Source: Plantimonas leprariae (GTDB lineage: Bacteria; Pseudomonadota; Alphaproteobacteria; Rhizobiales; Rhizobiaceae). Taken from it: 58,620 nucleotides of DNA. Location: positions 1 through 58,620 of the forward strand of contig NZ_VZDO01000025.1 in the NCBI RefSeq assembly GCF_008802405.1, given 5' to 3'. A model generated the notes under the pieces. It did no database searches. It saw nothing but the letters and a program-made list of their open reading frames with translations, and was not told the DNA's origin. The position numbers and the translations under genes are program-made. Positions within the stretch are counted from its first letter, which is position 1, and each line of letters opens with the position of its first letter. Shown here in pieces: positions 376 to 42,168 of the stretch.

Positions 376-1224
376 ATGACCGTCAACGCCTGGCTTTGGA
401 TCGGCGCGATCGCGATGGCGATCGGCGCCGCGGTTCAGCTCGTCATCGGCTGGGGGCCGCGCACCCGCGACGTCGAGAACCACTACCTCCTGCACCTCTT
501 CGTCTGCCTGGCGGCGATGGCCTCCTACCTGGTGATGGCGACGGGCGACGGCGCGATCCACCTGGCCGACGGCGGTCCCAACGGGCGCGACTTCTACTTC
601 GCCCGCTACATCGACTGGTCGGTGACGACGCCGATGCTGCTGCTTGGGCTAGGTCTCACGGCCATGCATTCGCCCTTCCGGCGCTGGGCGGCGTTGCTCG
701 GCGTCCTGTTCGCCGACAGCTACATGATCATCACCGGCCTCTTTGCCGGCCTCAGCCCGGTCGGCTCCAGCCAGAAGTGGCTGTGGTATCTCGTGAGCTG
801 CGCCGCCTTCGCCTTCGTCTACATCGGCATCTGGGGGCTGTTCCGGGAGGAAGCGCGGAAGACCAGCGACGAGGCCGCCAGCATCTTCCGGACCAACGCG
901 ACGATCCTGTCGATCGTCTGGCTTCTCTACCCGGTCGTGTTCCTGCTCGGCACGGAAGGCACGCTGTTCATGGGCGACGTCCCGACCGCCGCCGCCTATA
1001 CGATCCTCGATATCGTCGCGAAGGTCGGCTACGGCATCTTCTCGCTGCTGGAGACCAAGCGCAAGGCCGCCCGCGAGCTCGCCGCCGGGCTCATCCCCGA
1101 GCCGGACCTTCGTCCGGCCCCGGGAGCCTTCCACGAGGTCCGCGCTCCAGACCGCAACGAGATCGTCGGCGGCGAGGCGATCGAGCCGAACGAGCGACCC
1201 GTCGGCACCAGGCGCCGGACGTGA
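376..1224 (+). CDS. Microbial rhodopsin, DTG motif (copy 1)
   Basis: A 282-residue seven-helix retinal protein in the inner membrane, probably a light-driven proton pump or light sensor. Helix C reads RYIDWSVTTPMLLLG: Arg77, Asp80 (counter-ion, bacteriorhodopsin D85), Thr84 (T89) and Gly91 where pumps carry an Asp or Glu proton donor (D96). Helix G reads LDIVAKVGYG with Asp212 and the retinal lysine Lys216. Leu at the position of bacteriorhodopsin L93 suggests green absorption. The ATG follows GAGGGG at a good distance. The stop overlaps the GTG of the downstream carotenoid dioxygenase, so retinal supply is translationally coupled. Pump versus sensor is not settled by sequence: no transducer gene is adjacent, but the missing donor would slow a pump. 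Confidence 0.95.
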   Translation: MTVNAWLWIGAIAMAIGAAVQLVIGWGPRTRDVENHYLLHLFVCLAAMASYLVMATGDGAIHLADGGPNGRDFYFARYIDWSVTTPMLLLGLGLTAMHSPFRRWAALLGVLFADSYMIITGLFAGLSPVGSSQKWLWYLVSCAAFAFVYIGIWGLFREEARKTSDEAASIFRTNATILSIVWLLYPVVFLLGTEGTLFMGDVPTAAAYTILDIVAKVGYGIFSLLETKRKAARELAAGLIPEPDLRPAPGAFHEVRAPDRNEIVGGEAIEPNERPVGTRRRT

Positions 1225-2237
1225 GCATCTCGGAAAGAGAGCAGGTTGAGCAAGCGCGGTCCGTCCGGCCGCACGACCTTCAAGACCTCCGGGACGGCCA
1301 CGCCCTTCTCGCCTCGCTTGTGTTCCTGGCGGTTTGCGTCGCGGTCGGGCTGACGGGGCTGCCGAGCCGGGAAACTCAGCTGGTCCTGCTCGTTCCCGCT
1401 GTCGCCGTCGGACTGCCGCACGGCGCGCTCGATGGGCGAGACGGCAAGCGGCTGTTCGCGCCCCGGTACGGCCGGTTGTGGTTCGTGCCGTTTCTCGGCT
1501 GCTACGCCGCGCTGTTCACGGCCACTCTGCTGCTGTGGTGGCTCGCGCCCTTCCTCGCCCTGTCCGGCTTCTTGCTGATCTCGCTGGTTCACTTCGGCCA
1601 GTGCGACCGCGACCCGGCGAGCCGCTTTCCGCGCTTGTCGATCTTCGCGCATGGGGGCATCCCGATCGTCCTGCCGGCGCTCGCCTTTCCGAACGAAGTC
1701 GCGCAGCTGTTCGCTTGGCTCGTCGGCGAGCGGGACGCGGCGACGATCCTAGCTCTTCTGACCGGACCGGTTGCGGTCACCTGGGTAGCGGCGCTCTGCG
1801 TCGAGTGCGTGCAAGCCCTTCTCGAGCCGCAGGGCGCCCGACTGGGTGAGGCGCGACGCACCTTCAGCGCAACGGCTGCGCTGGTGCTGCTGTTCGCGAC
1901 CGTGCCGCCGCTCCTCGCCTTTGCCTTCTACTTCGCGCTGTTCCACGCGCCGCGAGCGCTCCTGGAGGCCACAGAGGGCGAGGCGCCGGACCCACGCGCT
2001 GCGATCGGGCGCGAGCTGAAGGCCGCCATGCCCCTGTCGATCGCCGCTATGGCGATCGGCGTCGCCTTGTTCGTCTTCCAGCAGGCCGACGACTGGACGC
2101 CCGCCGTCCTGCGCTCCGTCTTCCTGCTCCTCAGTGCGCTCACCGTCCCGCACATGTGGCTCGAATATCGTCTCAACGCGCAACGCGCCGCTAGCTTGTG
2201 CACGTCCAACCTGGTCCGGAGACAGCCGGGCAACTGA
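1221..2237 (+). CDS. blh: Brp/Blh-family beta-carotene 15,15'-dioxygenase (copy 1)
   Basis: A 338-residue polytopic membrane enzyme that cleaves beta-carotene to two retinal molecules, the rhodopsin chromophore. Family histidines are visible in PHGALDG, SLVHFG, FHAPRA and VPHMWLE, the presumed iron ligands. The GTG at 1221 overlaps the rhodopsin stop (GTGA). The open frame extends upstream to 312, but that part is only rhodopsin read out of frame. Copy 2 at 41149 has the same GTG start and the same first four residues. The stop overlaps the next ATG (TGATG), continuing the operon. No carotenoid synthesis genes are in the window, so beta-carotene must come from elsewhere. Confidence 0.92.
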   Translation: MSISEREQVEQARSVRPHDLQDLRDGHALLASLVFLAVCVAVGLTGLPSRETQLVLLVPAVAVGLPHGALDGRDGKRLFAPRYGRLWFVPFLGCYAALFTATLLLWWLAPFLALSGFLLISLVHFGQCDRDPASRFPRLSIFAHGGIPIVLPALAFPNEVAQLFAWLVGERDAATILALLTGPVAVTWVAALCVECVQALLEPQGARLGEARRTFSATAALVLLFATVPPLLAFAFYFALFHAPRALLEATEGEAPDPRAAIGRELKAAMPLSIAAMAIGVALFVFQQADDWTPAVLRSVFLLLSALTVPHMWLEYRLNAQRAASLCTSNLVRRQPGN

Positions 2238-3313
2238 TGCAGTCCCTGTCACTCCTTCCACTTCTCGCCATCTTCGCGGCGGCGGCCGTCGCGATCTGGG
2301 TTGCCGGCGTCCAGCTCTCGAACACGACCGACGTCCTGTCGCAGCGGTTCGGCCTCGGACAGGCGCTCGGCGGCGTCATCCTGCTCGCCATCGCCACCAA
2401 CCTGCCCGAGCTCGCGATCACCGCCAGCGCGGCTGCGAGCGGCAACATCGGCGTCGCGGTCGGCAACATCCTCGGCGGCATCGGCATCCAAACCGTGGTG
2501 CTCGTCGCGCTCGACGCGTTCGGCGTCCGGGAGAAGATGCCGCTGACCTACAAGGCCGCCAGCCTGACGCTGGTCATCGAGGGTCTGCTGGTCGTCGCCG
2601 TCCTCATCGTCGCGATCATGGGAACGCAACTGCCCGCCTCGCTCGTCTACGCCCGCGTCGGGCGGGACGCGCTCGCGATCGCGCTGATCTGGATCCTCGG
2701 CGTCTGGCTGATCGGGCGGGCGAACCGCGGCCTGCCCTGGCACGACAGCGCCGGCGACGCGCCGGACACGCAAAGCGAGCCGAAGGGCCATTCGCAAGCG
2801 AAAGCCGAGCAGGACGCGACCAGCAAAGGCACGAGCACCGTCCGGACGGCGATCGTCTTCCTCGTCGCGGCGGTCGTGACACTGGTGGCGGGCGTCGTGC
2901 TGGAGCGCGCCGGCGACGGCATCGCCGACCACATCGGCATGAGCGGCGTCCTGTTCGGCGCGACCGTCCTGGCCGCGGCGACATCGTTGCCCGAGCTCTC
3001 CACCGGGCTGACCTCGGCGCGGGCCGGCGACTACCAGCTCGCGATCAGCGACATCTTCGGCGGCAACGCCTTCCTGCCCGTCCTTTTCCTGCTCGCGACG
3101 CTAATCTCGGGCAAGGCTGTGCTGCCGGAGGCGCAGGACACCGACATCTACCTCGCCGGTCTCGCGGTGCTCTTCACCAGCGCCTACCTCGCCGGCCTGA
3201 TCTTCCGCCCGAAGCGCCGCATTCTCGGCATGGGCATCGACTCGCTGGCCGTGCTCGTCCTCTACGCCGTCGGGACCATGGGCTTGTTCGCGATCGCGCT
3301 CCAACATGCCTGA
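2237..3313 (+). CDS. Ca2+/cation antiporter (CaCA, Na+/Ca2+ exchanger-like) membrane protein
   Basis: A 358-residue protein with two halves of about five membrane segments each. Each half carries a CaCA alpha-repeat: TNLPELAITASAAASGN in the first and TSLPELSTGLTSARAG in the second, followed by GN or SD-x-FGGN elements that line the ion site. A charged, Gln/Lys-rich cytosolic loop (about residues 175-210) separates the halves, as is usual. It starts by TGATG overlap with blh, and its stop lies inside the start of mgtC (8-nt overlap). Being in the rhodopsin operon suggests it uses the light-driven ion gradient to move Ca2+ or another cation. Substrate and coupling ion are inferred. Confidence 0.85.
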   Translation: MQSLSLLPLLAIFAAAAVAIWVAGVQLSNTTDVLSQRFGLGQALGGVILLAIATNLPELAITASAAASGNIGVAVGNILGGIGIQTVVLVALDAFGVREKMPLTYKAASLTLVIEGLLVVAVLIVAIMGTQLPASLVYARVGRDALAIALIWILGVWLIGRANRGLPWHDSAGDAPDTQSEPKGHSQAKAEQDATSKGTSTVRTAIVFLVAAVVTLVAGVVLERAGDGIADHIGMSGVLFGATVLAAATSLPELSTGLTSARAGDYQLAISDIFGGNAFLPVLFLLATLISGKAVLPEAQDTDIYLAGLAVLFTSAYLAGLIFRPKRRILGMGIDSLAVLVLYAVGTMGLFAIALQHA

Positions 3314-3791
3314 CGGGCTGGACATGCTCCTGCGCCTGATCGTGGCCACCGCCGGCGGCGCGGTGCTTGGCTTCGAGCGCTCGCGGCAGAACCGCGCCAT
3401 CATGGGCTTCCGGACGCTGAGCCTCGTCGGCTTGGCGAGCTGCATCGCGGTGCTGGCGATCACGAACAGCGGCCTGCCGCAGATGAACGCCGACGCTGCC
3501 GGCCGCGTCGTGCAGGGCGTTCTGTCCGGCGTCGGCTTCATCGGGGCCGGGGCGCTGCTGCATGGGTCGAGCGGCCAACAGGTCCACGGCCTCGCGACGG
3601 CGGCCAGCATCTGGGTGTCGGCGGCGATGGGAACGGCGGCGGCGCTCGCGGTCTGGCCGCTGATCGCGGGCGGCGTGACGCTGGGACTGTTCGTGCTTCT
3701 TGTCGGCGGTCCGATCGAGCGCCGCATCCGTGAACATGCCCGCGGCACCGACGAGGAGGCGGATCGGCGCGATATGGAGGAGCGACCGTGA
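3306..3791 (+). CDS. MgtC/SapB family membrane protein
   Basis: A 161-residue inner-membrane protein with the MgtC/SapB hallmarks: GFERSRQNRAIMGFRTLSL near the N-terminus and the LSGVGFIGAGALL and HGLATAASIWVSAAMG stretches. It has about four to five membrane helices and lacks the C-terminal ACT-like domain of the longer virulence MgtC proteins. The family is tied to growth in low Mg2+, acid or phosphate stress, often through effects on the F-ATPase or membrane potential. A role beside a rhodopsin and a cation antiporter would fit membrane-potential control, but this is inference. A near-identical 5'-truncated copy lies at 58405-58620. Confidence 0.88.
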   Translation: MPDGLDMLLRLIVATAGGAVLGFERSRQNRAIMGFRTLSLVGLASCIAVLAITNSGLPQMNADAAGRVVQGVLSGVGFIGAGALLHGSSGQQVHGLATAASIWVSAAMGTAAALAVWPLIAGGVTLGLFVLLVGGPIERRIREHARGTDEEADRRDMEERP

Positions 3792-3810
3792 CGCGACGGA
3801 GCCCATACCG

Positions 3811-4170
3811 ATGACCGAGGCCGACGCCATCCACCTCGTCACGCGGGCCGTCGAGATCGTCGGCACCGCGATCATCGTCGTCGGCTCGTTCGGCGCGCTG
3901 GGGCTGTTCCTGCTTCGGCTGTTGAGCAACGCTGCACCTCGCGACGTGCTGTTCGCGAGCGTGCGCTCGAACCTCGGTCGGTCCATCCTGCTCGGTTTAG
4001 AGTTCCTGGTCGCGGCCGACATCATCAACACGGTGGCCGTCGAGCCAACGATCCAGAGCCTTCTCGTCTTGGCCGGCATCGTCCTGATCCGCACCTTCCT
4101 CAGCTTCTCGCTGGAGGTCGAGATCGAGGGACGCTGGCCGTGGCAAAAAGTCGGGAAGGCGGCCAGTTGA
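3811..4170 (+). CDS. DUF1622 family small membrane protein
   Basis: A 119-residue protein with an N-terminal helix, then two further membrane segments around the sequences FLVAADIINTVAV and LLVLAGIVLIRTFLSFSLEVEIEG, typical of DUF1622. Function is unknown. It lies 19 nt after mgtC on the same strand and is the last gene of the rhodopsin 1 operon. The ATG at 3811 is preferred because the in-frame start at 3700 would lie inside mgtC. Confidence 0.8.
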   Translation: MTEADAIHLVTRAVEIVGTAIIVVGSFGALGLFLLRLLSNAAPRDVLFASVRSNLGRSILLGLEFLVAADIINTVAVEPTIQSLLVLAGIVLIRTFLSFSLEVEIEGRWPWQKVGKAAS

Positions 4171-4183
4171 AGGAGCCGGGATC

Positions 4184-4204
4184 GTCCATCCGTACCCGGA
4201 TGAC
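4184..4204. terminator. Weak hairpin between convergent genes
   Basis: CATCCG-TACC-CGGATG forms a 6-bp stem (4187-4202), extended by GT/AC around one bulged base. There is no T-tract. It sits just past the rhodopsin 1 operon and before the convergent HxlR gene, where a terminator is expected. Confidence 0.3.
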
Positions 4205-4414
4205 GCTCAATCAGCGCACCGCGCTTGTATCAGTCCGCAAACGACCAAGCCACCGCCCTTCCCGCGGAAGCGGATTCGTTCTTCCACCCATCGCGGCGGT
4301 TCGGATGGTTGCGCCTCGTCGTGTGACGCAGCTGCTCAGGTTACCTGAAAGGACGTCGCAGTCGCGCCGCTACATTCTGTTCCTTCGGTGCTCAAGACGC
4401 CCAGCTCCTCAGTT

Positions 4415-4807
4415 TCACTTTGAGGTCTTGGCTTGCTTCATCTGGTGAATGTTCGCCTCGATCCAGTCGGCGAGCGCGGCGACCTTCTCCGCCGCCCCTT
4501 CACCGAGCGGCGTCAGCGTGTAGTCCGTATGCGGCGGCACGACCGGATAGGACCGGCGGACGACCAGCCCGTCGCCTTCCAGCCATTGCAGGGTCTGCGA
4601 CAGCATGCGCTCGCTGATGCCGGTGACTTTGCGACGGAGTTCGCTGAAGCGATGGGTGCCGCCCTGCAGGGCAATCAGAACCAGAACGCCCCAACGGCTG
4701 GTCATGTGCAGCATGACCGATCGCGACGGGCAGCCGGGCTCGAAGAGGTCGCCACGGGCCACCCGCTCGAACATCGACTCCGGCTTCGATATGTCCGCGA
4801 TCGACAC
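4415..4807 (-). CDS. HxlR-family redox-type transcriptional regulator (YtfH/QorR-like)
   Basis: A 130-residue winged-helix repressor. The core reads CPSRSVMLHMTSRWGVLVL, then GGTHRFSELRRKVTGIS and LTPLGEGAAEKVAALADWI, closely resembling E. coli YtfH. The single Cys (about residue 26) is the residue that thiol- and quinone-sensing HxlR regulators oxidise. It is divergent from qorB with 92 nt between, as ytfH-ytfG are in E. coli. It therefore likely represses qorB and itself until quinone or thiol stress. The start used is GTG at 4807; an ATG at 4774 is a possible alternative. Confidence 0.88.
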   Translation of the reverse strand: MSIADISKPESMFERVARGDLFEPGCPSRSVMLHMTSRWGVLVLIALQGGTHRFSELRRKVTGISERMLSQTLQWLEGDGLVVRRSYPVVPPHTDYTLTPLGEGAAEKVAALADWIEANIHQMKQAKTSK

Positions 4808-4812
4808 CTGAC

Positions 4813-4847
4813 GCTTACCTCGGCGTGCGTACTTCCTTAACGTAAGC
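4813..4847. promoter_or_regulatory. Candidate HxlR operator between ytfH-like and qorB
   Basis: GCTTAC (4813-4818) and GTAAGC (4842-4847) form an inverted repeat with a 23-nt spacer in the divergent intergenic region, beginning only 6 nt from the regulator's GTG. HxlR proteins bind as dimers to such divergent promoters. The site is inferred from symmetry and place. Confidence 0.4.
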
Positions 4848-4899
4848 TACTCGGTTATCCGGGATCGGGCAAGACAACCCTTCCAACCGGAGCCTCTTC

Positions 4900-5760
4900 A
4901 TGCGGTACGCCATCACCGGAGCTACCGGCCAGCTCGGCCGCCTCGTCATCGACGCGCTTCTCGAAACCGTTCCGGCAGCCGACGTCGTCGCCGCCGTCCG
5001 CGATCCGGCTAAGGCGTCCGACCTCGCGGCGAAGGGCGTCGAGGTGCGGGAGGCGGACTACGACCGCCCGGACACGCTGCGCACCGCCTTCGAGGGCATC
5101 GGCAAGGTGCTGCTGATCTCGTCGAGCGCCGTCGGCGTCCGCGAGAAGCAGCACCGAGCCGCGATCGATGCGGCGAAGGCGGCGGGCGTCGAGCTTCTCG
5201 CCTACACGAGTATCCTCCACGCCGACACGACGCCGGCGAAGCTCGCCCGCGAGCACAAGGCGACCGAGGACGCGATCGCGGCGTCCGGCGTGCCGGCCGC
5301 GATCCTGCGCAACGGCTGGTACACCGAGAACCACCTGATGGGCCTCCAGCCAGCGCTGGAGCACGGCGCCATGGTCGGCTCCGCTGGCGAGGGTCGGTTC
5401 TCGTCGGCGGTCCGGGCCGACTACGCGGCGGCCGCGGCGGCCGTGCTCCTGTCGGCGGAGAGCCAAGCGGGACAAGTGTACGAGCTGGCCGGCGACGACG
5501 GCTACACGCTCGCCGAGTTCGCCGCCGAACTGTCGCGGCAGACGGGCAAGGAGATCGCCTACCGGGATCTGCCCGAAGCGGACTACAAGGGCGTCCTCGC
5601 GGGCGCTGGCCTGCCGGAGGCGCTCGCCGACGCGCTCGCCGACGAGGACAACGTGGCGCGGAACGACACGCTGTTCGACGACGGCCGAACCCTCAGCCGC
5701 CTGATCGACCGACCCACGACGCCGATGCGCGAGACCGTCGCCGCCGCCCTCGCAGGGTAG
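4900..5760 (+). CDS. qorB: NAD(P)H:quinone oxidoreductase, QOR2 type
   Basis: A 286-residue NmrA-like atypical short-chain dehydrogenase, the same length as E. coli QorB (YtfG). It reduces quinones with NADPH in the cytosol. The N-terminal nucleotide-binding motif is ITGATGQLG. Further family stretches are YTSILHADT, LRNGWYTENHL and VYELAGDDGYTLAEFAAEL. It is divergent from its probable regulator and followed by a strong hairpin, so it is likely a single-gene unit switched on by quinone or electrophile stress. Confidence 0.9.
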   Translation: MRYAITGATGQLGRLVIDALLETVPAADVVAAVRDPAKASDLAAKGVEVREADYDRPDTLRTAFEGIGKVLLISSSAVGVREKQHRAAIDAAKAAGVELLAYTSILHADTTPAKLAREHKATEDAIAASGVPAAILRNGWYTENHLMGLQPALEHGAMVGSAGEGRFSSAVRADYAAAAAAVLLSAESQAGQVYELAGDDGYTLAEFAAELSRQTGKEIAYRDLPEADYKGVLAGAGLPEALADALADEDNVARNDTLFDDGRTLSRLIDRPTTPMRETVAAALAG

Positions 5761-5772
5761 CGGCATGGGTCT

Positions 5773-31073: not shown

Positions 31074-31123
31074 GCGATGGGCGGCTGGCCGTTCGATGGG
31101 AGGAGTATCGCACGGACGCAGGC

Positions 31124-31321: not shown

Positions 31322-31518
31322 AGGATCGGCGCATGCGCGCTGCTCGCGCTCGTGCGACAGGAGATGCGTGCCTCTGTCCGGATCGTTGCGCCGGCTCGCT
31401 CCGACCGCGTGCACCTCGCGGCCGGACAGGATGGCCAACTAATTGTAATTCCAGGCCCCTTCTGTTCCCCGCGAGACAAAGCGTCGCATATCGTAACGGC
31501 GAACGGCTGGAGCCTGCC

Positions 31519-31884: not shown

Positions 31885-31988
31885 ATCGAGGATGCGTCTG
31901 TCTTCATCGCCACGCAACGACTTCGGTCTTCACAAGATCGTCGTGCCCTTGCTGGAATAGTTGTCGTCGGAACGGGTGGGTCCGCCGC

Positions 31989-32630: not shown

Positions 32631-35600
32631 GTGCCGGACAATCTGGCATCCATATGGCCGCAGGGCAGCGGCGAGATGGCCGAGCGCGTTCGCGCCTTCG
32701 ACTGGTCGCAGACGCCGCTCGGACCGACCGAGGCGTGGCCCCCGAGCCTGAAGGTCGCCACTCGCTTGGCTCTGAACAGTCGCCACCCGATGTTCATCTG
32801 GTGGGGCCCGGACCACATCCAGATCTACAACGACGCATATCGTGAGACGATGGGGCCGGAAAAGCACCCGGACGCCCTGGGGCGGACAGGACGCGAGACG
32901 TGGGCGGAGATCTGGGACACCATCGGCCCGCAGATCTCGCAGGTCATGGCCGGTGGTCCGGCGACCTGGCACGAGGATCAGCTCGTCCCGGTGACGCGCC
33001 ACGGACGGCGCGAGGACGTCTGGTGGACCTACAGCTTCAGCCCGATCAACGACGAGATGGAGCCGAACGGTGTCGGCGGCGTCATGGTCATCTGCCGCGA
33101 CATGACGACGGAACATTCGGCCCGCGAGGCGGCCGCCGAGAACGAGGCCCGTCTGCGCACCGTGCTCGACGGCATCAGCGAGCCCTTCTATGCGCTGGAC
33201 AGCGACTGGCGGTTTCTGTTTGCCAGCCAGTCCGCGCTCCGGCTCTGGGGCAAGGATGCGGGCGAGGTCCTCGGGCGCCCGTTTCTTGAGGCCTTTCCGC
33301 AGGCGGCCGGCAGCGCAGCCTTTGAAGCGCATCGCCGCGTCATGGAGACGCGCGTGGCGGAGCGCCTGGAGACGATCTCCCCTGTCGTTCACCGTTGGAT
33401 CGAAATCGACTTCGCCCCGACGCCGCAGGGCGGCTTGTCCGTCGCGTTCAGGGACATCGAGGAGCGACGACGGGCTGAGGATGCTCTCCGCGAGAGCGAG
33501 GAGAAGTACCGCACCGTATTCGAGTCGATCGACGAGGGGTTCCTCATCCATGAAATGATCCGAGACAAGTCGGGCCAAGTCGTCGATTACCGATTGCTCG
33601 AGGCCAACCCGGCGCACCAACGCGCCACGGGGTTGCCACGAGACACCATCGGCAAGCTCGGCAGCGAGTTCATGCCGAATGTCGAACCGTACTGGCTGGA
33701 GCTCTTCCATCGAGTCTCGACGTCGGGCGTCGCCGAGCGCGCCGAGATGTACAATGCGCCGACCTCCCGATGGTATAACGTCCAGGCCTCGCCTGTTCGC
33801 GGCCACGATCGCATCGCCATTGTCTTCGACGACGTCACGAGCCGCAAACGTGCCGAAGCTATCCTTCGCGAGAGCGAGGAGCGGCAGGCATTCCTGCTGA
33901 AGCTCAGCGATGCCTTGCGGCCGCTCGACGATGCCGAGGACATTCGGCTGACGGCGGCGCAGGTGCTGGGCCGGCATCTCGGCGCGAACCGGGTCGCCTA
34001 TGCCGAGAACGGCGGCGACCACTTCATGGTGGCGCGCAACTACGTCGACGACACGCAGGAGATCGTCGGGCGCCAGAACTATGTCGACTTTGGGCCCGAC
34101 ATCCTCGCCGAACTCCAGGCCGGACAAAACCGCGTCCAGCCGGACATCCGGAACGACGGCCGGCTGAGCGACCACCAGAAGCAAGGGTTGGCCGCCGCGG
34201 ACGTCGGCGCGTCGCTGAACGTGCCGCTCGTGAAGAACGGTCAACTCGTTGCGTTCCTCGGTGTCAACTATCCGGTCGCGCACGACTTCCAGCCGTCCGA
34301 GATCGCGTTGGTGGAAGACGTGGCCGAGCGCACCTGGGCGGCGGTGGAACGCGCCCGTGCCGAGAACGCGTTGCACCAGAGCGAGCGGCGGCTGGCGGCG
34401 GAATTGTCCGGCACTCAACTGCTTCAGCGGCTGAGCACCCGTCTCATTCCGGAACAGTCGCCCGACGTGCTGCACGAGCAGATCCTCGACGCGGCCCAGG
34501 AGCTGATGGAGGCCGACGCGGTCAGCATCCAGTTGCTGGAAGACAGCGGCCAGCGGCTGCGCCGCCTGGCGACCCGGAACCTTCATCCCGACTCGACCGA
34601 GTACTGGACATGGGTGGACGCAAGCCACGCCAGCACTTGCGGGCAGGCGCTTCGCATGAACACCCGTATGGTCGTGGAAGATGTCGAAACGAGCGCCGAG
34701 CTGGCCGGGACGGATGACTTGGAAGCGTTCCGCCGGTCCGGCACCCGGGCGGCGCAATCCACGCCGCTGGTGTCCCGTTCCGGGCGGCCGATCGGCATGA
34801 TCTCCACGCACTGGCACAAGCCGTGTGCGTTGGCCGAGCGCGACTTTGGCCTGTTCGACATTCTGGCGCGGCAGGTCGCGGATCTCTTGGAGCGCTCGCA
34901 GGCGGAAGCCGCCTTGAGGGCCAGCGAGGAACGACTGCGGGGCTTCGGCGAGGCGTCGACGGACGTCCTGTGGATCCGCGATGCCGAGACGCTGAACTGG
35001 ACCTACCTGACGCCGGCCTTCGAGGCGATCTACGGCATGCCGCGGGATGAGGCGCTCAGCGGCAACAACTTCCGCAACTGGGTCGAACTCATCCTGCCGG
35101 AAGACCGGGACCAGGCGGTCGACACCATCCGTCGCGTCCGCCTCGGCGAGCCCGTCACCTTCGAGTACCGCATCCGCCGGCCAAGCGACGGCCAGATCCG
35201 CTGGCTGAGGAACACCGACTTCCCGATCCGAAACGCCGAAGGACGCGTGACGGCGATCGGCGGCGTCGGCCACGACGCCAGCCACAAGAAGGAAGCCGAC
35301 CGGATCATCCGGGCCAGCCGCCGGCAGATGCGCACCCTCATCGAGGGCGTGCCGCAACTCGTGTGGCGCGGCGTCGAAGGCGGCGAGTGGACGTGGTCGA
35401 GCCCGCAATGGACGAGCTTCACCGGACTGTCGGAAGCGGCCAGCACCGGCCGCGGCTGGCTGGCCGCGGTGCATCCGGACGACCGGGAGCGGGCGATGGA
35501 CGCGTGGCAACAGGCCGAGGCGACGGAGGAGCCGCTCGAGGTCGAGTACCGCATCCGACAGGCCGGTGGTGAAGGTTACCGCTGGTTCCAGACGCGGGCG

Positions 35601-36317
35601 CTCCCCGTTCGCGACGAGGACACCGGTCGGATCCTCGAATGGCTCGGGACATCCACCGACGTCGACGACATGCGCGCCATGCAGGAGAGCCAGGCCGTGA
35701 TGGTCGCCGAACTCCAACACCGGACGCGCAACCTGATCGCCGTCGTCGGCTCGATCGCCCGACAGACAATGGCGCAGACCGGACCGACAACGACCTTCCA
35801 GGCGGAGTTCAAAGACCGCCTGGAGGCGCTGTCGCGGGTGCAGGGACTCCTGTCGCAGGCGGGCGAGGACCGCATCACGATCGGCGAGGTCGTCGCGATG
35901 GAGCTGAAGGCGCTCGGCGCGCTGTCGTTCGGCGAGCGCGTCAGGGTCGAGGGGCCGGACGTGCCGCTGCGCAAGTCGATCGTACAGACCATGGCGCTGG
36001 CGATCCACGAGCTGGCGACCAACGCCCGGAAGTACGGCGCGTTGTCGAACGGTTCGGGCGAGCTGGCCGTGCGCTGGACGACGAGCCCGGCGGAAGAGAA
36101 CGACCGCCACCTCTTCTTCGAATGGATCGAGCGCGGTGTGGCAGTGAAGTTCGCGGACGGCGCCGCCGTCACGCAGGGCGGCGGCTACGGCCGCAGGCTC
36201 ATCGAGGAGTCGCTGCCCTACTCGTTGAAGGCGAAGACGACCTACGAACTCGGACCGGACGGCCTCGCCTGCATGATCGACCTGCCGCTCACCAAGCCCC
36301 GAAGGAGCCGAGCATGA
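32631..36317 (+). CDS. Large multi-PAS/GAF HWE-family histidine kinase
   Basis: A 1228-residue soluble sensor kinase. The N-terminal domain (1-160) is the PAS-like type beginning ...RAFDWSQTPLGPTEAWPPSL. PAS domains follow at about 165-280 and 285-410, GAF domains at about 415-590 and 600-760, and PAS domains at 765-895 and 900-1020. The HWE core comes last: VAELQHRTRNLIAVVGSIAR with the His, HELATNARKYGALSN as N-box, FEWIERG as W-x-E, and GGGYGRRLIEESLPYSLKA. CGGAGG lies 6 nt before GTG 32631. The stop overlaps the receiver ATG (ATGA), so kinase and receiver are made together. Confidence 0.94.
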   Translation: MPDNLASIWPQGSGEMAERVRAFDWSQTPLGPTEAWPPSLKVATRLALNSRHPMFIWWGPDHIQIYNDAYRETMGPEKHPDALGRTGRETWAEIWDTIGPQISQVMAGGPATWHEDQLVPVTRHGRREDVWWTYSFSPINDEMEPNGVGGVMVICRDMTTEHSAREAAAENEARLRTVLDGISEPFYALDSDWRFLFASQSALRLWGKDAGEVLGRPFLEAFPQAAGSAAFEAHRRVMETRVAERLETISPVVHRWIEIDFAPTPQGGLSVAFRDIEERRRAEDALRESEEKYRTVFESIDEGFLIHEMIRDKSGQVVDYRLLEANPAHQRATGLPRDTIGKLGSEFMPNVEPYWLELFHRVSTSGVAERAEMYNAPTSRWYNVQASPVRGHDRIAIVFDDVTSRKRAEAILRESEERQAFLLKLSDALRPLDDAEDIRLTAAQVLGRHLGANRVAYAENGGDHFMVARNYVDDTQEIVGRQNYVDFGPDILAELQAGQNRVQPDIRNDGRLSDHQKQGLAAADVGASLNVPLVKNGQLVAFLGVNYPVAHDFQPSEIALVEDVAERTWAAVERARAENALHQSERRLAAELSGTQLLQRLSTRLIPEQSPDVLHEQILDAAQELMEADAVSIQLLEDSGQRLRRLATRNLHPDSTEYWTWVDASHASTCGQALRMNTRMVVEDVETSAELAGTDDLEAFRRSGTRAAQSTPLVSRSGRPIGMISTHWHKPCALAERDFGLFDILARQVADLLERSQAEAALRASEERLRGFGEASTDVLWIRDAETLNWTYLTPAFEAIYGMPRDEALSGNNFRNWVELILPEDRDQAVDTIRRVRLGEPVTFEYRIRRPSDGQIRWLRNTDFPIRNAEGRVTAIGGVGHDASHKKEADRIIRASRRQMRTLIEGVPQLVWRGVEGGEWTWSSPQWTSFTGLSEAASTGRGWLAAVHPDDRERAMDAWQQAEATEEPLEVEYRIRQAGGEGYRWFQTRALPVRDEDTGRILEWLGTSTDVDDMRAMQESQAVMVAELQHRTRNLIAVVGSIARQTMAQTGPTTTFQAEFKDRLEALSRVQGLLSQAGEDRITIGEVVAMELKALGALSFGERVRVEGPDVPLRKSIVQTMALAIHELATNARKYGALSNGSGELAVRWTTSPAEENDRHLFFEWIERGVAVKFADGAAVTQGGGYGRRLIEESLPYSLKAKTTYELGPDGLACMIDLPLTKPRRSRA

Positions 36318-36934
36318 GCGACACGACGACATCGCTGGCGGGCAAACGGGTTCTCCTCGTCGAGGACGAGTACTTCATCGCCCAGGAGATGAAGCAGGCG
36401 TTCGAAGCCTTCGGCGCGACGATCGTCGGTCCGGTCGCCGACCCCGACGACGCGCTCGACCTGATCGAGGCCGCGGAGCCGATCGACGGCGCGGTGCTCG
36501 ACGTCAACCTCCAGGGCGACACGGTCTACCCCGTCGTGGACGCCCTCAAGGAGCGTGGCGTGCCGTTCGTGTTCGCCACCGGCTACGATCGTTCCCACGT
36601 CCCCGCCAAGTTCAGCGACGTCACGATGTACGAGAAGCCGATCCGGCCGAGCGTCGTCGGCGCAACGCTGTTCGAAGAGACGCCCCAGCCTAGCGCGGAT
36701 CGACATTCAGCGGAGCCAGATCATAGTGGCGGCGAGATGGACGAAGCCGGCGAAGTGGATGGTTCGGCGATCATAACGGGTCGCGAAGCGGCGGAAGTGC
36801 TTGAGGCGTCCGAAGCATCGTTCGATGCGGTTGCGCTGTTTATAAGCGGTCGCGTCATGGGGGATGGCAACCTTGCGGGATCGGTTCGAAGGGATGACGA
36901 TCGTGGCGCCCATATCGGCGATGGTGGCCCGTAG
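36314..36934 (+). CDS. Receiver partner of the HWE kinase, C-terminus replaced by IS sequence
   Basis: Residues 1-120 are a normal receiver: VLLVEDEYF, GAVLDVNL with Asp63, FVFATGY and YEKPI. Translational coupling to the kinase (ATGA) marks it as the cognate partner. After about residue 125 (LFEETPQ) the frame continues through the IS5-family remnant in antisense and ends at 36934, adding about 80 foreign residues (for example DHSGGEMDEAGEVDGS). The core domain is intact, so it may still function with an odd tail. Confidence 0.8.
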   Translation: MSDTTTSLAGKRVLLVEDEYFIAQEMKQAFEAFGATIVGPVADPDDALDLIEAAEPIDGAVLDVNLQGDTVYPVVDALKERGVPFVFATGYDRSHVPAKFSDVTMYEKPIRPSVVGATLFEETPQPSADRHSAEPDHSGGEMDEAGEVDGSAIITGREAAEVLEASEASFDAVALFISGRVMGDGNLAGSVRRDDDRGAHIGDGGP

Positions 36935-37272
36935 AGCATTGCTGTCATAGGCTTTGTCGGCGAGCACGGCCTCACCGCTCTGCCCCTGAAGCAAGGCGGG
37001 CGCCTGGGTGATGTCGCCGGTTTGTCCGGGCGTGATGATGAAGCGAAGCGGGCGGCCGAGTGCGTCGGCCAGCATGTGGACCTTTGTGGTCAGTCCGCCT
37101 CGGGAACGCCCCAGCGCCTGATCCTTGGCCCCCCTTTTCCGCTCGCCGCCTGCTGGTGCGCCCGCACGATCGTGCTGTCGATCATCAGGTACTGGTTGGC
37201 CCGGTCGGCAGCCAGCGTTTCGAAGACCCGTTCCCAGACGCCAGCATGGCACCAGCGGCTGAAGCGGCGTCG
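36690..37272 (-). mobile_element. Truncated IS5-family element
   Basis: The transposase lies on the minus strand; its C-terminal end (ATMIWLR, stop at 36707) is close to the receiver gene, while its 5' end is cut inside the coding region at about 37272, where sequence switches to a copper-protein gene. Roughly 580 bp of an expected 800-900 remain. I could not identify terminal inverted repeats or a target duplication, so both borders are approximate. Loss of the 5' end together with the 3' half of the neighbouring gene suggests an IS-adjacent deletion. Confidence 0.75.
36707..37272 (-). pseudogene. IS5-family transposase, 5'-truncated, two frames
   Basis: Two overlapping minus-strand frames. 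The first (to 37090) reads RFSRWCHAGVWERVFETLA and YLMIDSTIVRAHQQAASGK, carrying the first catalytic Asp. The second (36707-37252) reads GRSRGGLTTKVHMLADALG, LADKAYDS with the second Asp, and RNRIERCFGRLKHFRR with the Glu. They are joined at an A4G6 run (37138 to 37129 on the minus strand), the kind of slippery site this IS group uses for frameshifting. The N-terminal about 70 residues are gone, so it is not active. Confidence 0.82.
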
Positions 37273-37388: not shown

Positions 37389-37417
37389 TGCTGATCCTTT
37401 CGCACGTTTGTGATTCG

Positions 37418-39928
37418 TCAGCGACCGGACGGTGCGCTCCGCCCGGTTTCCTCCCTCGGCAGGGCGTAGGCGACGACGTGGTCGCCGAGTTCCGTGCCGA
37501 GCGAGCCGTGGCCGCCGGCGACCGCCACCACGAACTGCCGCTCCGATGCCTCCGACCAGTAGGTCATCGGCGTCGCCTGCGCCCCGGCCGGCAGGCGCGC
37601 CTGCCAGAGCTCGCGCCCGCTCGTCAGCTCGTAGCCGCGGATGTAGTAGTCGAGCGTCGAGGTGAGGAAGGCGAGGTTGCCGGCCGTCACGATCGGGCCG
37701 CCGAGCGAGGGCACACCGAGCTTGAAGGGAACCGGGATCGGGCTCTCGTCGCGGATCGTGCCGTTTCGGTGCTTGTAGACGATCTTGCCGGAGGCGAGAT
37801 CGACGCCCGCGACGTAGCCCCAGGGCGGCGCTTGGCAGGGGAGCCCCAGCGGCGACAGGAACGGGTTCAGCTCCACCGCGAAGGGCGCGCCCTTGTTGGG
37901 GTTCAGCCCGTGCTCGTCCGAGGCCTGGAGGTCGGAGCCGCCGGCGGGACCCGTCTGGCCGGACGTGCCAGCCGGGCTGTCGTTGCCCTGCGGCTCCACC
38001 CGCTGCGGCACGAGCCGATCGACGAAGGCGAAGTAGTCCGGGTTGACGAAGGCGACCTGGCGTTCCGGGTCGACGGCGATCCCGCCCCAGTCGGTGACGC
38101 CGAAGTTGCCGGGATAGACGATCGTGCCCTGCGTAGACGGCGGCGTGAACGGCCCCTCGTAGCGGAGCTGGCGGAAGCGGATGCGGCAGGCGAGCTGGTC
38201 GAACAGGGTCGCACCCCACATGTCGGCTTCGCGCATCATCGGCTCCGGCCGGAGCGAGACCGACGAGAAGGGCTGCGTCGGAGACGTGTGGTCGCCGGGC
38301 GCGGCGCCGCCCGGCACGGGGCGCTCCTCGATGGGATGCACGGGTTCCCCGGTGCGCCGGTCGAGCACGAAGATGTCGCCGGTCTTGGTGGACTGGGCGA
38401 GCGCCGGCACCCTGCCCTTCCCCTCGATGTCGAGGTCGACCAGCACCGGCTGCGAGGGCACGTCCATGTCCCAGAGATCGTGGTGGACGGTCTGGTGCAC
38501 CCAGCGCACCCGGCCTGTCGCGATCTCCAGCGCCAGCACCGAGGTCGCGAAGCGCTCGGTGGTCTCCGGCCGCTCGCCACCCCACTGGTCTACGGCCCCC
38601 ATGCCCATCGGCACGTAGAGGAGGCCGAGATCCTCGTCGGCCGACGAGGTGCTCCAACTATTCGGCGAGGACCAGGCGTAGTGTTGGTCAGGACCGATCG
38701 GCGCCGTCTGGTCCGGGTTGCCGGGATCGAAGTTCCAGACCAGCCTTCCCGTGGCGACGTCGAAGGCGCGGATCACGCCGGAGGGCATCTTCACCGCCGC
38801 GTTGTCGTAGACGGCGCCGGCGAGGATCACGAGCCCCTTCATCACCAGCGGCGCGGAGGTGAACTGGTACCAGCCGTCCTGCCGGCTCGGCATGCCGCGC
38901 CACATGTTCACTTGGCCGCCCTCCCCGAACGTCGGGCACGGCTGGCCGGTGCGCGCGTCCAGCGCGAAGAGCCGCGTGTCGTTGGTGCCGAGGAACAGAC
39001 GCTCGGCGCATTCGCCGTTGGGGGCCTTGACCGCGCCGGGGACGCGGGAGTCGTGGTAGGACACGCCACGGCAGGTCAGGTGCTGGAGGTGCGGCGAGAC
39101 CGTGATCTTCGGATCGAACCGCCAGCGCTCCTGCCCGGTCTCGGCCTCCAGCGCCAGGACGATGTCGTGCGGGGTGCAAAGATAGACGGTGTCGCCGACC
39201 TTCAGCGGCGTCACCTCGTAGGTCGTCTCGTGCGGGTCGCCGGGCCGCATCATATCGCCGGTGCGGATCGACCATGCAACCTCTAGGCTACTGACGTTCT
39301 CCGGGTTGACCTGATCGAGCGGCGACCATTTGTTGCCGTGCCAGGAACGGCCGTAGGCGCTCCAGTCGCCGTCCGGGACGCCGCCGTAGTTCGCCGCGAC
39401 CGAGGCGCGCTTATCCGGCAAGGTGCCGGGTTGGGTATGATAGTCCGAAAGCAGCGCCGCGGCGCCGACGCCGGCCGCGACAACGAGCGAAAGCGCGAGC
39501 GGCACGCCGGCCCCGCGCCAGGGCAGCGGGGCCCGCTCGCCGGGGTGGCGGGAAAGCGAGCGCGTGATCCACGGGGTAAGCAGTAGGAGGCCAACGAGGA
39601 ACACGATATCGCCGCGTGGCACGAGCTGCCACCAATCGAAGCCGATCTCGGCGACCGCCCAGCCGACCGTTCCGAGCACCACGGCGGCGTAGACCCAGAG
39701 CGCCAGCGGCGAGCCGCGGAAGAGAAGCACGCCGGTGGCCAGCATTCCGACCCCGGCCAGCACGTAGTACCAGTTGCCGCCGAGCGCCGCGAGCCAGCCG
39801 CCGGCGACGAGAAGCCCGAGTCCGACGATCGCGAGAAGAAGACCGACGAGACGGACGAAAAGGTTCGGGGGCCGCTGGCTTCGACCGGCGAGCGCTTCGG
39901 ATTGCTCCACGTTCGGCCTGCTCTCCAT
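37418..39928 (-). CDS. gcd: Membrane-bound PQQ-dependent glucose dehydrogenase
   Basis: About 836 residues, close to the usual 800. Five N-terminal membrane helices (about 20-150) anchor it in the inner membrane. A periplasmic PQQ beta-propeller follows, with GDWSAYGRSWHGNKWSPLDQ at the start and SPHLQHLTCRGVSYHD, QTVHHDLWDMDVPSQPVLVD and YPGNFGVTDWGG blades. It oxidises glucose (or another aldose, quinate or shikimate; that subfamily is similar) to the lactone and passes electrons to ubiquinone. No PQQ synthesis genes are in the window. ATG 39928 has AGGG 12 nt upstream; ATG 39940 and TTG 39973 are alternatives. Divergent from rhodopsin 2. Confidence 0.9.
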   Translation of the reverse strand: MESRPNVEQSEALAGRSQRPPNLFVRLVGLLLAIVGLGLLVAGGWLAALGGNWYYVLAGVGMLATGVLLFRGSPLALWVYAAVVLGTVGWAVAEIGFDWWQLVPRGDIVFLVGLLLLTPWITRSLSRHPGERAPLPWRGAGVPLALSLVVAAGVGAAALLSDYHTQPGTLPDKRASVAANYGGVPDGDWSAYGRSWHGNKWSPLDQVNPENVSSLEVAWSIRTGDMMRPGDPHETTYEVTPLKVGDTVYLCTPHDIVLALEAETGQERWRFDPKITVSPHLQHLTCRGVSYHDSRVPGAVKAPNGECAERLFLGTNDTRLFALDARTGQPCPTFGEGGQVNMWRGMPSRQDGWYQFTSAPLVMKGLVILAGAVYDNAAVKMPSGVIRAFDVATGRLVWNFDPGNPDQTAPIGPDQHYAWSSPNSWSTSSADEDLGLLYVPMGMGAVDQWGGERPETTERFATSVLALEIATGRVRWVHQTVHHDLWDMDVPSQPVLVDLDIEGKGRVPALAQSTKTGDIFVLDRRTGEPVHPIEERPVPGGAAPGDHTSPTQPFSSVSLRPEPMMREADMWGATLFDQLACRIRFRQLRYEGPFTPPSTQGTIVYPGNFGVTDWGGIAVDPERQVAFVNPDYFAFVDRLVPQRVEPQGNDSPAGTSGQTGPAGGSDLQASDEHGLNPNKGAPFAVELNPFLSPLGLPCQAPPWGYVAGVDLASGKIVYKHRNGTIRDESPIPVPFKLGVPSLGGPIVTAGNLAFLTSTLDYYIRGYELTSGRELWQARLPAGAQATPMTYWSEASERQFVVAVAGGHGSLGTELGDHVVAYALPREETGRSAPSGR

Positions 39929-40246
39929 GCGTTCTGCCATCCCTTGTCGCGCGAGCGTGACGGGCGCCTCCAAACCTTTTGCTTATTCCGCTGCGCCGGA
40001 CTGCCGAGGCGGATACCCGGAACGTCTGGGCCTTTTCCGCCAAGTGCGACATCCGCCGCCGACGCCGCCACGACTCGATCGCCGCAAACCGTTCTTCAGG
40101 CGCAATATCGGCAATGACCGTGGAGCCGCCAATGCGAAATGGTTAGCCAGCACAGTTCAATATTCGGCAGCTCGGCAAGCATTTTTCGAAGCATTTATGC
40201 GCCGCCGGCTACGTATAGTCGGCTCAGTTCATTCAGACGATCGCAT
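39929..40246. other. Divergent intergenic region, gcd / rhodopsin 2
   Basis: About 318 nt with no gene that I can support. It must hold the gcd promoter on the minus strand; I see no clear sigma-70 boxes. Its right end meets the GGAAC promoter of rhodopsin 2. Confidence 0.5.
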
Positions 40247-40272
40247 GGAACGCCCGCTTTATCCTACATGTT
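40247..40272 (+). promoter_or_regulatory. EcfG-like stress promoter of rhodopsin operon 2
   Basis: GGAAC at 40247-40251, a 17-nt spacer and TGTT at 40269-40272, ending 31 nt before the ATG at 40304. This is the same architecture and leader length as upstream of rhodopsin 1 (320-344), although the spacer and leader sequences differ. It resembles the alphaproteobacterial EcfG consensus (GGAAC-N16/17-CGTT) with T for C in the -10. Confidence 0.55.
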
Positions 40273-40303
40273 GGCTTGCGGTCATCCGCAGCGAAGAACA
40301 AAC

Positions 40304-41152
40304 ATGACCGTCAACGCCTGGCTTTGGATTGGCGCGATCGCGATGGCGATCGGCGCCGCGGTTCAACTCGTGATCGGCTGGGGGCCGCGAACCCGCGACG
40401 TCGAGAACCACTATCTCCTGCATCTCTTCGTCTGCCTGGCGGCGATGGCATCCTACTTGGTGATGGCGACCGGCGACGGCGCGATCCATCTGGCGGACGG
40501 CGGACCGGTAGGCCGCGACTTCTACTTCGCCCGCTACGTCGACTGGTCGATCACCACGCCAATGCTCCTCCTCGGGCTCGGGCTGACGGCGATGCACTCC
40601 CCGTTCCGCCGCTGGGCGGCGCTGCTCGGCGTCCTCTTCGCCGACAGCTACATGATCATCACCGGCCTGTTCGCGGGACTCAGCCCGGTCGGCTCCGGCC
40701 AGAAATGGCTCTGGTACATCGTCAGCTGCGCCGCGTTCGCCTTCGTCTACATCGGCATCTGGGGCATCTTCCGAAGCGAGGCGAAGAAGACCAGCGAAGA
40801 GGCCGCCAGCCTCTTCCGGACGAACGCCACGATCCTCTCCGCCGTCTGGTTCCTCTATCCGGTCGTGTTTCTCCTCGGCACCGAGGGCACCCTGTTCATG
40901 GGCGACGTGCCGACGGCCGCCGCCTACACGCTCCTCGATATCGTCGCGAAGGTCGGCTACGGCACCTTCTCGCTGATCGAGACCAAGCGTAAGGCGGCCC
41001 GCGAACTCGCCGCCGGCCTGATCCCCGACCCGGACCTTCGGCCGGCGCCGGCCGCCTTCCACGAGATCCGCGCGCCGGCCCGCAACGAAGCGGTCGGCGA
41101 TGAGGCGATCGAGACGAACGAGCGACCCTTCGGGACTCGGCGCCGAACGTGA
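40304..41152 (+). CDS. Microbial rhodopsin, DTG motif (copy 2)
   Basis: 282 residues, the same length as copy 1, with about 23 differences (about 92% identity). Asp80, Thr84, Gly91, Asp212 and Lys216 are all kept (RYVDWSITTPMLLLG; LDIVAKVGYG). Changes near the pocket are conservative (I79V, V83I, I221T); others cluster in the loops and C-terminal tail. The frame is open to 40139, but ATG 40304 matches copy 1. The stop overlaps the blh GTG. Whether the two differ in colour or kinetics cannot be read from sequence. Confidence 0.95.
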   Translation: MTVNAWLWIGAIAMAIGAAVQLVIGWGPRTRDVENHYLLHLFVCLAAMASYLVMATGDGAIHLADGGPVGRDFYFARYVDWSITTPMLLLGLGLTAMHSPFRRWAALLGVLFADSYMIITGLFAGLSPVGSGQKWLWYIVSCAAFAFVYIGIWGIFRSEAKKTSEEAASLFRTNATILSAVWFLYPVVFLLGTEGTLFMGDVPTAAAYTLLDIVAKVGYGTFSLIETKRKAARELAAGLIPDPDLRPAPAAFHEIRAPARNEAVGDEAIETNERPFGTRRRT

Positions 41153-42168
41153 GCATTTCCGAACGGGAGCCGGTCGAGGCGGCGCGATCCCTGCGGCCGC
41201 GCAGCCTTCACGACCTGCGAAGCGGCCAAGCGCTTCTCGCCTCGCTCGCGTTCCGGGCGGTTTGCGGCGCTGTCGCGGTGGCCGGACCGCCGAATGCCGG
41301 AACCCAGCTCGCCTTGCTGGTTCCCGCCGTCGCGGTCGCGCTGCCGCACGGTGCTCTCGACGGACGAGACGGCAAGCGGCTGTTCGTCCCACAGCACGGC
41401 CGGTTGTGGTTCGTGCCGTTTCTCGGGAGCTACGCAGCGCTGTCCATGGCCACCCTGCTGCTGTGGTGGTTCTCACCCTTCCTTGCTCTCTCCGGCTTCC
41501 TGCTGATCTCGCTGGTTCATTTTGGTCAGTGCGATCGTGAGACGGCGAGCAGCTTCCCTCGAGCCTCCGTTCTCGCGCGGGGTGGCATCCCGATCGTCCT
41601 GCCGACGCTGGCCTTTCCAGACGAGGTCGGGCGCCTGTTCGCTTGGCTTGCCGGGGAAAGGAACGCCGCGGTAGTCCTCGCCCTTCTCGTCGGCCCGGTG
41701 GCGGTGGTCTGGCTTGCAGCGGTCGCCGTGGAAGTGGCGCAGGCGCTTCTGGAGCCGCAGCGTCGCCGACCGGGCGACGCGCTGACGGCGCTCAGTGTCG
41801 CCGGTGCTCTGGCGCTGCTGTTCGCGACCGTGCCGCCGCTTCTCGCCTTCGCGCTCTACTTCTCGCTGTTCCATGCTTCCCGGGCGCTCTTGCAGGCGAC
41901 GGCGGGCGAAGGGACGGACCCGCGCACGGCGATCGGGCGCGCGATGCGGGATGCGGTTCCCCTGTCGATCGCCGCGATCGCGATCGGCGCCATCCTGTTC
42001 CTGTTCCAGCCCGCCGGCGCCGCGACGCCCGCCGTGCTGCGCGCCGTCTTCCTGCTGCTCAGCGCTCTCACCGTCCCGCACATGTGGCTCGAACACCGGC
42101 TGCGGATAGACGCAGATTCGATGTCGAAGCGACTTGAAGCGGCAGCCGTTCGGGAGGAACGCCCATGA
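41149..42168 (+). CDS. blh: Brp/Blh-family beta-carotene 15,15'-dioxygenase (copy 2)
   Basis: A 339-residue membrane enzyme that makes retinal from beta-carotene for rhodopsin 2. The histidines in PHGALDG, SLVHFG, FHASRA and VPHMWLE are kept. Helical segments align with copy 1, but the ends differ: copy 1 has a longer unrelated C-terminus (...SNLVRRQPGN), while this one ends ...KRLEAAAVREERP. It is coupled to rhodopsin 2 by GTGA and to the oxalate decarboxylase by ATGA. Confidence 0.92.
   Translation: MSISEREPVEAARSLRPRSLHDLRSGQALLASLAFRAVCGAVAVAGPPNAGTQLALLVPAVAVALPHGALDGRDGKRLFVPQHGRLWFVPFLGSYAALSMATLLLWWFSPFLALSGFLLISLVHFGQCDRETASSFPRASVLARGGIPIVLPTLAFPDEVGRLFAWLAGERNAAVVLALLVGPVAVVWLAAVAVEVAQALLEPQRRRPGDALTALSVAGALALLFATVPPLLAFALYFSLFHASRALLQATAGEGTDPRTAIGRAMRDAVPLSIAAIAIGAILFLFQPAGAATPAVLRAVFLLLSALTVPHMWLEHRLRIDADSMSKRLEAAAVREERP

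Follow-up and report, generated by a model that had tools for sequence, protein, structure and literature searches.

Rhodopsins of the DTG/DTS type form two clades, SpaR-like proton pumps and MpR-like proteins. The former are marked by H32, H33, S121, and S199 and the latter, in most members, by E32, E33, and D35, while MpR of Methylobacterium populi was reported as a Li+/Na+ pump (all as retold in the parts of PMC10154332 drawn on here). Genomes with two rhodopsins have also been described: according to the sections of PMC9584328 consulted, Sphingomonas aerolata PDD-32b-11 has two DTG/DTS rhodopsins, each adjoining a beta-carotene dioxygenase gene, and a Dokdonia genome combines a proteorhodopsin with a xanthorhodopsin-like protein (PMC3587595, likewise in part). 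Here we analyzed a stretch of 58,620 bases from Plantimonas leprariae (contig NZ_VZDO01000025.1, our C16; hereafter the window), which is a complete contig, with sequence 5' of position 1 outside view. It carries two rhodopsin genes, each followed by blh, and the two rhodopsin-blh pairs stand 39.9 kb apart and lead into different downstream genes. The host genome, 4.77 Mb in 39 contigs, has exactly two Bac_rhodopsin and two BCD-family (blh) matches, all on this contig.

An earlier note on this DNA had called two such cassettes in one region unusual. As to the number of loci this needs correction, since dual loci per genome are already known, in S. aerolata as described in those sections and in 3 of 111 Methylobacterium genomes; what is unusual is a close (92%) and cargo-divergent pair, found inside one 43-kb stretch in the window only, among the genomes searched. 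The reading we lean toward, and consider somewhat probable as a whole, is that a two-gene cassette of a DTG-type rhodopsin and Blh was duplicated long ago and that both copies were retained because each came to head its own operon. With beta-carotene supplied by a carotenoid cluster in the same genome, Blh would produce retinal by cleavage, and with this both rhodopsins would be light-driven pumps that move cations outward, most likely H+ and possibly Na+. In operon 1 the light-driven gradient would serve cation homeostasis via a CaCA-superfamily antiporter, MgtC, and DUF1622; in operon 2 the same pump would be linked to an exported, H+-consuming oxalate decarboxylase; and the general stress sigma factor EcfG may switch on both via GGAAC-N16/17-TGTT.

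Two intact copies under purifying selection

Both rhodopsins score far above the Bac_rhodopsin cut-off of 24.6 bits, and both Blh proteins exceed the curated TIGR03753 cut-off of 95 bits (Table 1). The rhodopsin copies, each of 282 residues, are identical at 259/282 positions (92%) and the Blh copies at 236 of 340 alignment columns (69%), and in both copies rhodopsin and blh overlap by 4 nt, which bears out the lengths, identity, and gene coupling given in the earlier note. For copy 2, whose frame is open from 40139, we chose the start homologous to that of copy 1. Homology between the loci starts at the ribosome-binding region and stops about 65 nt before the blh stop, so that the cargo switch sits at the extreme end of blh; the two blh genes lack mutual resemblance over their last ~20 codons, and blastn between the two loci found nothing matching outside 354-2173 and 40283-42101. 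Junctions through both operons are overlaps of 1 to 8 nt, save a 19-nt gap before the DUF1622 gene, and from these spacings we infer that each gene set is one operon. Given that ~17% of bases differ and that the flanks differ inside one contig, the idea that one copy was assembled twice is rejected as far as sequence allows.

Non-synonymous (dN) and synonymous (dS) divergence, obtained from Nei-Gojobori counts, gave dS 0.464, dN 0.050, and dN/dS 0.11 for the rhodopsin pair and dS 0.57, dN 0.168, and dN/dS 0.29 for the Blh pair (first 316 aligned codons). Both gene pairs are under purifying selection, with Blh less constrained, and neither is therefore drifting freely. The claim that both copies had been kept under selection thus stands, and the accompanying one that many of their differences are silent applies to rhodopsin and less so to blh. 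Across the first 47 rhodopsin codons dS is lower (0.20), perhaps through gene conversion or constraint on the start region.

Differences between the copies were polarized against 37 outgroup sequences, with the commonest outgroup residue as reference. Among the 23 differing rhodopsin sites, 12 match neither copy and 5 are without an outgroup letter; at the 6 polarizable ones, copy 2 changed at 5 and copy 1 at 1. In Blh, copy 2 changed at 15 sites and copy 1 at 19, a roughly even split, and 60 sites match neither. Neutral drift of one copy, the outcome against which the earlier note had proposed aligning the loci and computing these rates, is unsupported by dN/dS, and the excess in rhodopsin copy 2 amounts to six sites only. 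Slow decay of one copy after duplication would fit that excess, as well as the mgtC and oxdC fragments on the same contig (relics of duplicated genes). Against it stand the lack of any frameshift or stop, the intact active site, the pairwise rhodopsin dN/dS, and the near-even Blh changes, and we regard it as very improbable.

The synonymous divergence of ~0.5 suggests that the duplication is old. A serious alternative, which we nonetheless place short of probable, is that the cassettes are xenologues, acquired in separate events from a single unsampled donor lineage and each with its cargo already attached. Consistent with separate arrival, none of five congeners (one of them 65% complete) had a rhodopsin match, the closest other rhodopsins are ~45–47% identical, homology is limited to the cassette with unrelated flanks, and a fragment of an IS5-type DDE transposase lies between the cassettes (36707-37252, minus strand). 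However, in both trees built each copy has the other as its closest relative, and the two lie 40 kb apart on one strand and are similar in GC content overall and at third codon positions (GC3), for which local duplication is the simpler explanation.

A putative third DTG lineage

Both copies have D80, T84, and G91, that is, DTG at bacteriorhodopsin (BR) positions 85/89/96, together with H40 at the BR T46 position, D212, and the retinal lysine K216, which is invariant across 10 aligned sequences. Neither set of clade marks is complete in them. With numbering taken from a Methylobacterium aquaticum relative, MpR itself being left out of the comparison, the window proteins carry one of three MpR-like marks (V33, E34, H36, of which only the glutamate agrees), and with numbering from a Sphingomonas parapaucimobilis relative they carry one of four SpaR-like marks (N35, H36, then G and T). 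In a tree of 14 rows, the window pair branches separately (98/94) from both a SpaR/PaR-like clade (support 100/99) and a Methylobacterium group, whose 90/93 is below the tool's starred threshold. This tree, from which the long branches L024, L020, L022, and L025 were left out, was preferred to one of 48 rows, where those branches made the placement unsure. On this evidence, the window rhodopsins would represent a third DTG lineage beside the SpaR-like and MpR-like clades, one that appears to be new here.

With the MpR-like DTG rhodopsins of Methylobacterium, which are the nearest tree rows by path length, the window proteins share DTG, the conserved histidine at BR T46, an adjoining blh, and ~45% identity; they differ in lacking E32 and D35, in a C-terminal tail ~30 residues longer, and in their separate branch. 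With the SpaR/PspR/PaR-like "mirror" proteorhodopsins they share the DT(G/S) motif and equivalents of H37 and H33, but they lack those of H32, S121, and S199 and are 36–39% identical. The S. aerolata rhodopsins were likened, in the portion of PMC9584328 cited here, which compares no cargo, to a proton-pumping one of Pseudomonas putida; that clade, judged on S. parapaucimobilis and Pantoea soli relatives, is separate from the window branch. The closest solved structure, best of 171 PDB sequences, is PDB 8xx8 chain A ("Rhodopsin"; E 1.2e-51, residues 3-243), in which T takes the place of the window proteins' proton acceptor D80 (RYITW vs RYIDW).

As a default guess, the ion pumped by both rhodopsins would be H+. 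They might instead be light-driven Na+ pumps, as reported for MpR, that directly feed a Na+-coupled antiporter in operon 1, and the proximity of Methylobacterium DTG rhodopsins in the tree together with the Li+/Na+ pumping of MpR (as retold in the cited part of PMC10154332) speaks for this. Given that of the MpR-clade markers E33 is present and E32 and D35 are absent, and that a Na+/Ca2+ specificity of the antiporter is presumptive, we consider a Na+ pump distinctly unlikely.

Retinal would require a source of beta-carotene. Another contig of the genome (C11) encodes a lycopene cyclase (PF05834, 310 bits, spanning 1-378 of 380 positions, a family that also matches in 10/14 control genomes), a phytoene synthase (PF00494, 239 bits), and, where CrtI is expected, a CrtI-like frame of the amine-oxidoreductase family, which make a supply of beta-carotene for Blh plausible; a glycosyltransferase on the same contig may be CrtX.

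Distribution of rhodopsin-blh loci

Rhodopsins are sparse around the window's genome, which is itself included in each of the following counts: PF01036 matched in 10 of 100 relatives, and a protein search found rhodopsin in 10/397 genomes of the order, 3/297 of the family, and 23/385 of the class. A second rhodopsin occurred in no other genome of the relatives, order, family, or class sets. In Methylobacterium, where a rhodopsin match was present in 39 of 111 genomes, G1087, G1110, and G1118 have two full rhodopsins, with blh adjoining all six loci (6/6) and pairs 51–55% identical. Scanning contigs with an alignment of five sequences yielded 29 loci, 27 from Methylobacterium/Methylorubrum and two from Beijerinckiaceae metagenome-assembled genomes, while an earlier scan with N-terminal patterns built from the two copies alone found no relative; such scans reach relatives of the query patterns only, and a closer rhodopsin elsewhere is possible.

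Three further observations concern these loci. One Methylobacterium contig (L130, G1132:C134) has a rhodopsin in two pieces on opposite strands, with a full match elsewhere in the same genome. Loci L005-L010, from relatives of the family (L006 of the order), encode rhodopsin-family proteins with R replacing the retinal lysine (by eye, DFLNR or DILNR vs DFLNK of L003), which are probably unable to bind retinal. A 40-kb Methylobacterium plasmid (L015) carries rhodopsin-blh near IS91 transposase and integrase genes, and a plasmid of this kind is a possible vehicle for such cassettes.

Downstream genes of the two operons

Copy 1 is followed by genes for an antiporter, MgtC, and DUF1622 and copy 2 by one for oxalate decarboxylase, as family matches confirm for the assignments in the earlier note. 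This difference in cargo is a stronger point than the presence of two loci, since part of it accompanies a distant rhodopsin elsewhere. When nine window proteins were compared with the rhodopsin loci, the antiporter and DUF1622 were also found behind rhodopsin-blh in two Methylobacterium genomes (L125 in G1118 and L126 in G1136), in the gene order of operon 1 minus mgtC. The antiporters of these loci and the window are 67.5% identical and the rhodopsins 39–40%; the L125 rhodopsin is DTS, unlike the DTG copies of the window. A recurrent link of rhodopsin-blh with antiporter and DUF1622 in Methylobacterium appears to be new here. A search of open-licence PMC papers found none that joined rhodopsin with DUF1622, or with calcium antiporter and operon.

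The antiporter subfamily (E up to 1e-50) occurs in 3 of 110 Methylobacterium genomes (G1118, G1136, and G1153), in two of the three directly behind rhodopsin-blh, and in 1/397 genomes of the order, which is the window's own. In G1153 the antiporter, 88–89% identical to the two linked ones, is on a different contig from the rhodopsin, and the 9 kb around it hold no rhodopsin match. Because the Methylobacterium antiporters resemble each other closely whether linked or not, whereas the rhodopsins are distant, the data suggest that antiporter-DUF1622 was joined to rhodopsin-blh in two separate events; alternatively, an old shared operon may have evolved at unequal rates. A Spirosoma plasmid has an antiporter gene and then a DUF1622 gene with no annotated rhodopsin nearby, and the pair therefore also exists apart. 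Around the Cnuibacter, Hymenobacter, and Spirosoma plasmid antiporters no rhodopsin is annotated within 5–6 kb on each side, and searching those stretches, as well as an unannotated one of Natronococcus, by tblastn with the two window rhodopsins and that of L125 found nothing.

The oxalate decarboxylase of operon 2 scores 560 bits against TIGR03404 (cut-off 254), has HxH at 116 and 297, keeps the lid Glu, and aligns over residues 27-404 of 405 with Bacillus subtilis OxdC structures (PDB 1j58/1uw8, 5vg3; E 4e-154). Like OxdC it is a full-length bicupin with both HxH metal motifs, and unlike OxdC it has a twin-arginine-type signal, with which it would be exported, the lid SEDST for SENST, and a place as third gene behind rhodopsin-blh. 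Oxalate decarboxylase consumes H+.

The two cassettes could also be redundant dosage copies with one light-energy job, their downstream genes being incidental neighbors. Active-site residues identical in both rhodopsins and a Blh that evolves faster than rhodopsin would agree with this, but overlaps of 1 and 4 nt join blh to the cargo genes, and antiporter-DUF1622 stands again behind a distant rhodopsin; we consider mere dosage unlikely.

Relics and neighbors of the cargo genes were seen as well. The contig breaks off within a second mgtC, present as a fragment (58405-58620) that lacks the 5' part and agrees with 3483-3698 at 204/216 bases; duplication of some of the operon 1 cargo is probably more recent than that of the rhodopsins. 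At 47051-47217, just ahead of a CDC48-type ATPase gene, a short remnant is left of the 3' end of another oxalate decarboxylase gene, and a membrane-bound pyrroloquinoline quinone (PQQ)-dependent dehydrogenase of the glucose/quinate/shikimate type (TIGR03074, 1065 bits) is encoded divergently from operon 2 at 37418-39973 on the minus strand.

Promoter-like sites shared by both copies

We take GGAAC-N16/17-CGTT to be the promoter consensus of EcfG, the sigma factor of the general stress response. The window holds three GGAAC-N16/17-YGTT sites, two of which end 31 nt before the rhodopsin ATGs and fit the consensus in GGAAC and spacing though not in the -10 half, and four GGAAC-N16/17-NGTT sites on both strands. 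By shuffling, the chance of a site in a given 100 nt is ~0.002. In the 100 nt above the homologous block, the copies otherwise lack significant similarity (59/500 shuffles as high), and the site was therefore kept or regained. A GGAAC-N16-CGTT site in the genome extends to base 1 of the longest frame for an HWE kinase and is upstream of that gene if a later start is used.

Among other rhodopsin upstream regions, 8/53 have such a site, seven of the eight belonging to a single Methylobacterium clade, which has it in 7/7 members, at positions -90 to -97; starts for the 53 regions were guessed by script, one region was just 11 nt, and the seven clade members are related, not independent. As background, the 29 named loci gave 3542 pieces of 250 nt, of which 15 had the site, some of these being the same rhodopsin sites. 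The genome has phyR and an extracytoplasmic function (ECF) sigma factor gene with a PhyR_sigma2 match. An EcfG-type promoter-like site shared by both copies at the same distance appears to be new here, and both operons are perhaps stress-induced via EcfG. In the open-licence PMC passages covered, a link between rhodopsin and EcfG was not drawn.

Weighing the proposed reading

Several observations weigh against the account of a duplicated cassette heading two stress-controlled operons. Duplication, rather than two arrivals, is the assumption on which it builds; pump activity, the ion, export, co-transcription, control by EcfG, and energetic coupling are likewise predicted from sequence. The antiporter is below the NCBIfam cut-offs for named antiporters, including calcium/sodium (TIGR00367, 67 vs a curated 180 bits), and matches at the level of the superfamily only (PF01699). 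Since the two Methylobacterium genomes with the linked antiporter, G1118 and G1136, are closely related, they amount to a single event. Neither oxalate decarboxylase nor MgtC was found beside any other rhodopsin locus compared (many with 1.5-kb flanks, the 29 named ones with up to 8 kb), and the oxalate link is therefore a single case.

For the promoter-like sites, the -10 element is TGTT and not CGTT, and their total is unremarkable, with 3 YGTT sites against 1.09 expected and 9/100 shuffles giving at least 3. Moreover, 45/53 other rhodopsin upstream regions were without the site, including those of the antiporter-linked L125 and L126, which have no GGAAC site within 250 nt upstream. A site is expected in the phyR-ecfG intergenic region, and a scan there with spacers of 15–19 plus one or two bases found none.

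Table 1. Features of the two rhodopsin-blh operons in the window.
Feature	Coordinates	Strand	Evidence and remarks
EcfG-type promoter-like site GGAAC-N16-TGTT	320..344	+	Pattern scan; ends 31 nt before rhodopsin 1 ATG
Homologous block, copy 1	354..2173	+	82.7% DNA identity to 40283-42101
Rhodopsin copy 1 (282 aa)	376..1224	+	PF01036 160 bits; DTG D80/T84/G91, retinal lysine K216, H40
blh copy 1, beta-carotene 15,15'-dioxygenase (retinal synthesis)	1221..2237	+	PF15461 175 bits, TIGR03753 190 bits
CaCA-superfamily cation antiporter (Na_Ca_ex)	2237..3313	+	PF01699 92 bits; start overlaps blh stop by 1 nt
MgtC-family membrane protein	3306..3791	+	PF02308 86 bits; 8-nt overlap with antiporter gene
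DUF1622 membrane protein	3811..4170	+	PF07784 86 bits (longer frame 3700-4170); ATG chosen 19 nt past mgtC
EcfG-type promoter-like site GGAAC-N17-TGTT	40247..40272	+	Pattern scan; ends 31 nt before rhodopsin 2 ATG
Homologous block, copy 2	40283..42101	+	Counterpart of 354-2173
Rhodopsin copy 2 (282 aa)	40304..41152	+	PF01036 149 bits; active-site residues as in copy 1
blh copy 2	41149..42168	+	PF15461 168 bits, TIGR03753 183 bits; 69% to copy 1
Bicupin oxalate decarboxylase, N-terminal twin-arginine-type signal	42165..43382	+	TIGR03404 560 bits; 4-nt overlap with blh

Other features of the contig

A stretch of 460 bases is present in two copies, 80% identical, at 18978-19437 and 45223-45682, with no Pfam match in the frames scanned. 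PAS/GAF-HWE histidine kinases, response regulators, and apparent fragments of these are found at 21151-23460 (minus), 32631-36317 (plus), 23515-23907 (minus), 30615-32381, and 44895-45314. Scans of the window for tRNA genes and Rfam families gave no match, no terminator-like site was seen in 3700-5000, the sole stretch scanned for one, and plasmid searches found no near copy of the contig, just single shared genes among the matches listed; three records in one of these searches reached identities of 95% or more.

Biological significance

The arrangement of familiar parts is unusual here, while the kind of system itself is not new. A pump alone rarely reveals how a light-driven gradient is spent, and two near-identical probable pumps with different defined cargo in one cell make the purpose of each set testable. 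A further-reaching proposal, which we hold to be doubtful, is a stress-induced "plug-in" light-power cassette of the third DTG lineage. Duplicated and joined to different cargo, it would let light power two separate tasks, extrusion of cations (possibly Ca2+) via the antiporter, MgtC, and DUF1622 and the handling of oxalate and acid via an exported oxalate decarboxylase; if true, the two combined would be of use to a bacterium that meets calcium oxalate on the surfaces of plants or rocks, and the recurrence of antiporter-DUF1622 in Methylobacterium speaks for a genuine functional pairing. Given the stress-promoter-like site, some rhodopsins may serve the general stress response rather than growth phototrophy. 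The mere presence of two rhodopsins is not where the value of the finding lies; it lies in gene sets that are paired and testable and in an antiporter-DUF1622 partner that recurs, a specific candidate for the consumer of the gradient.

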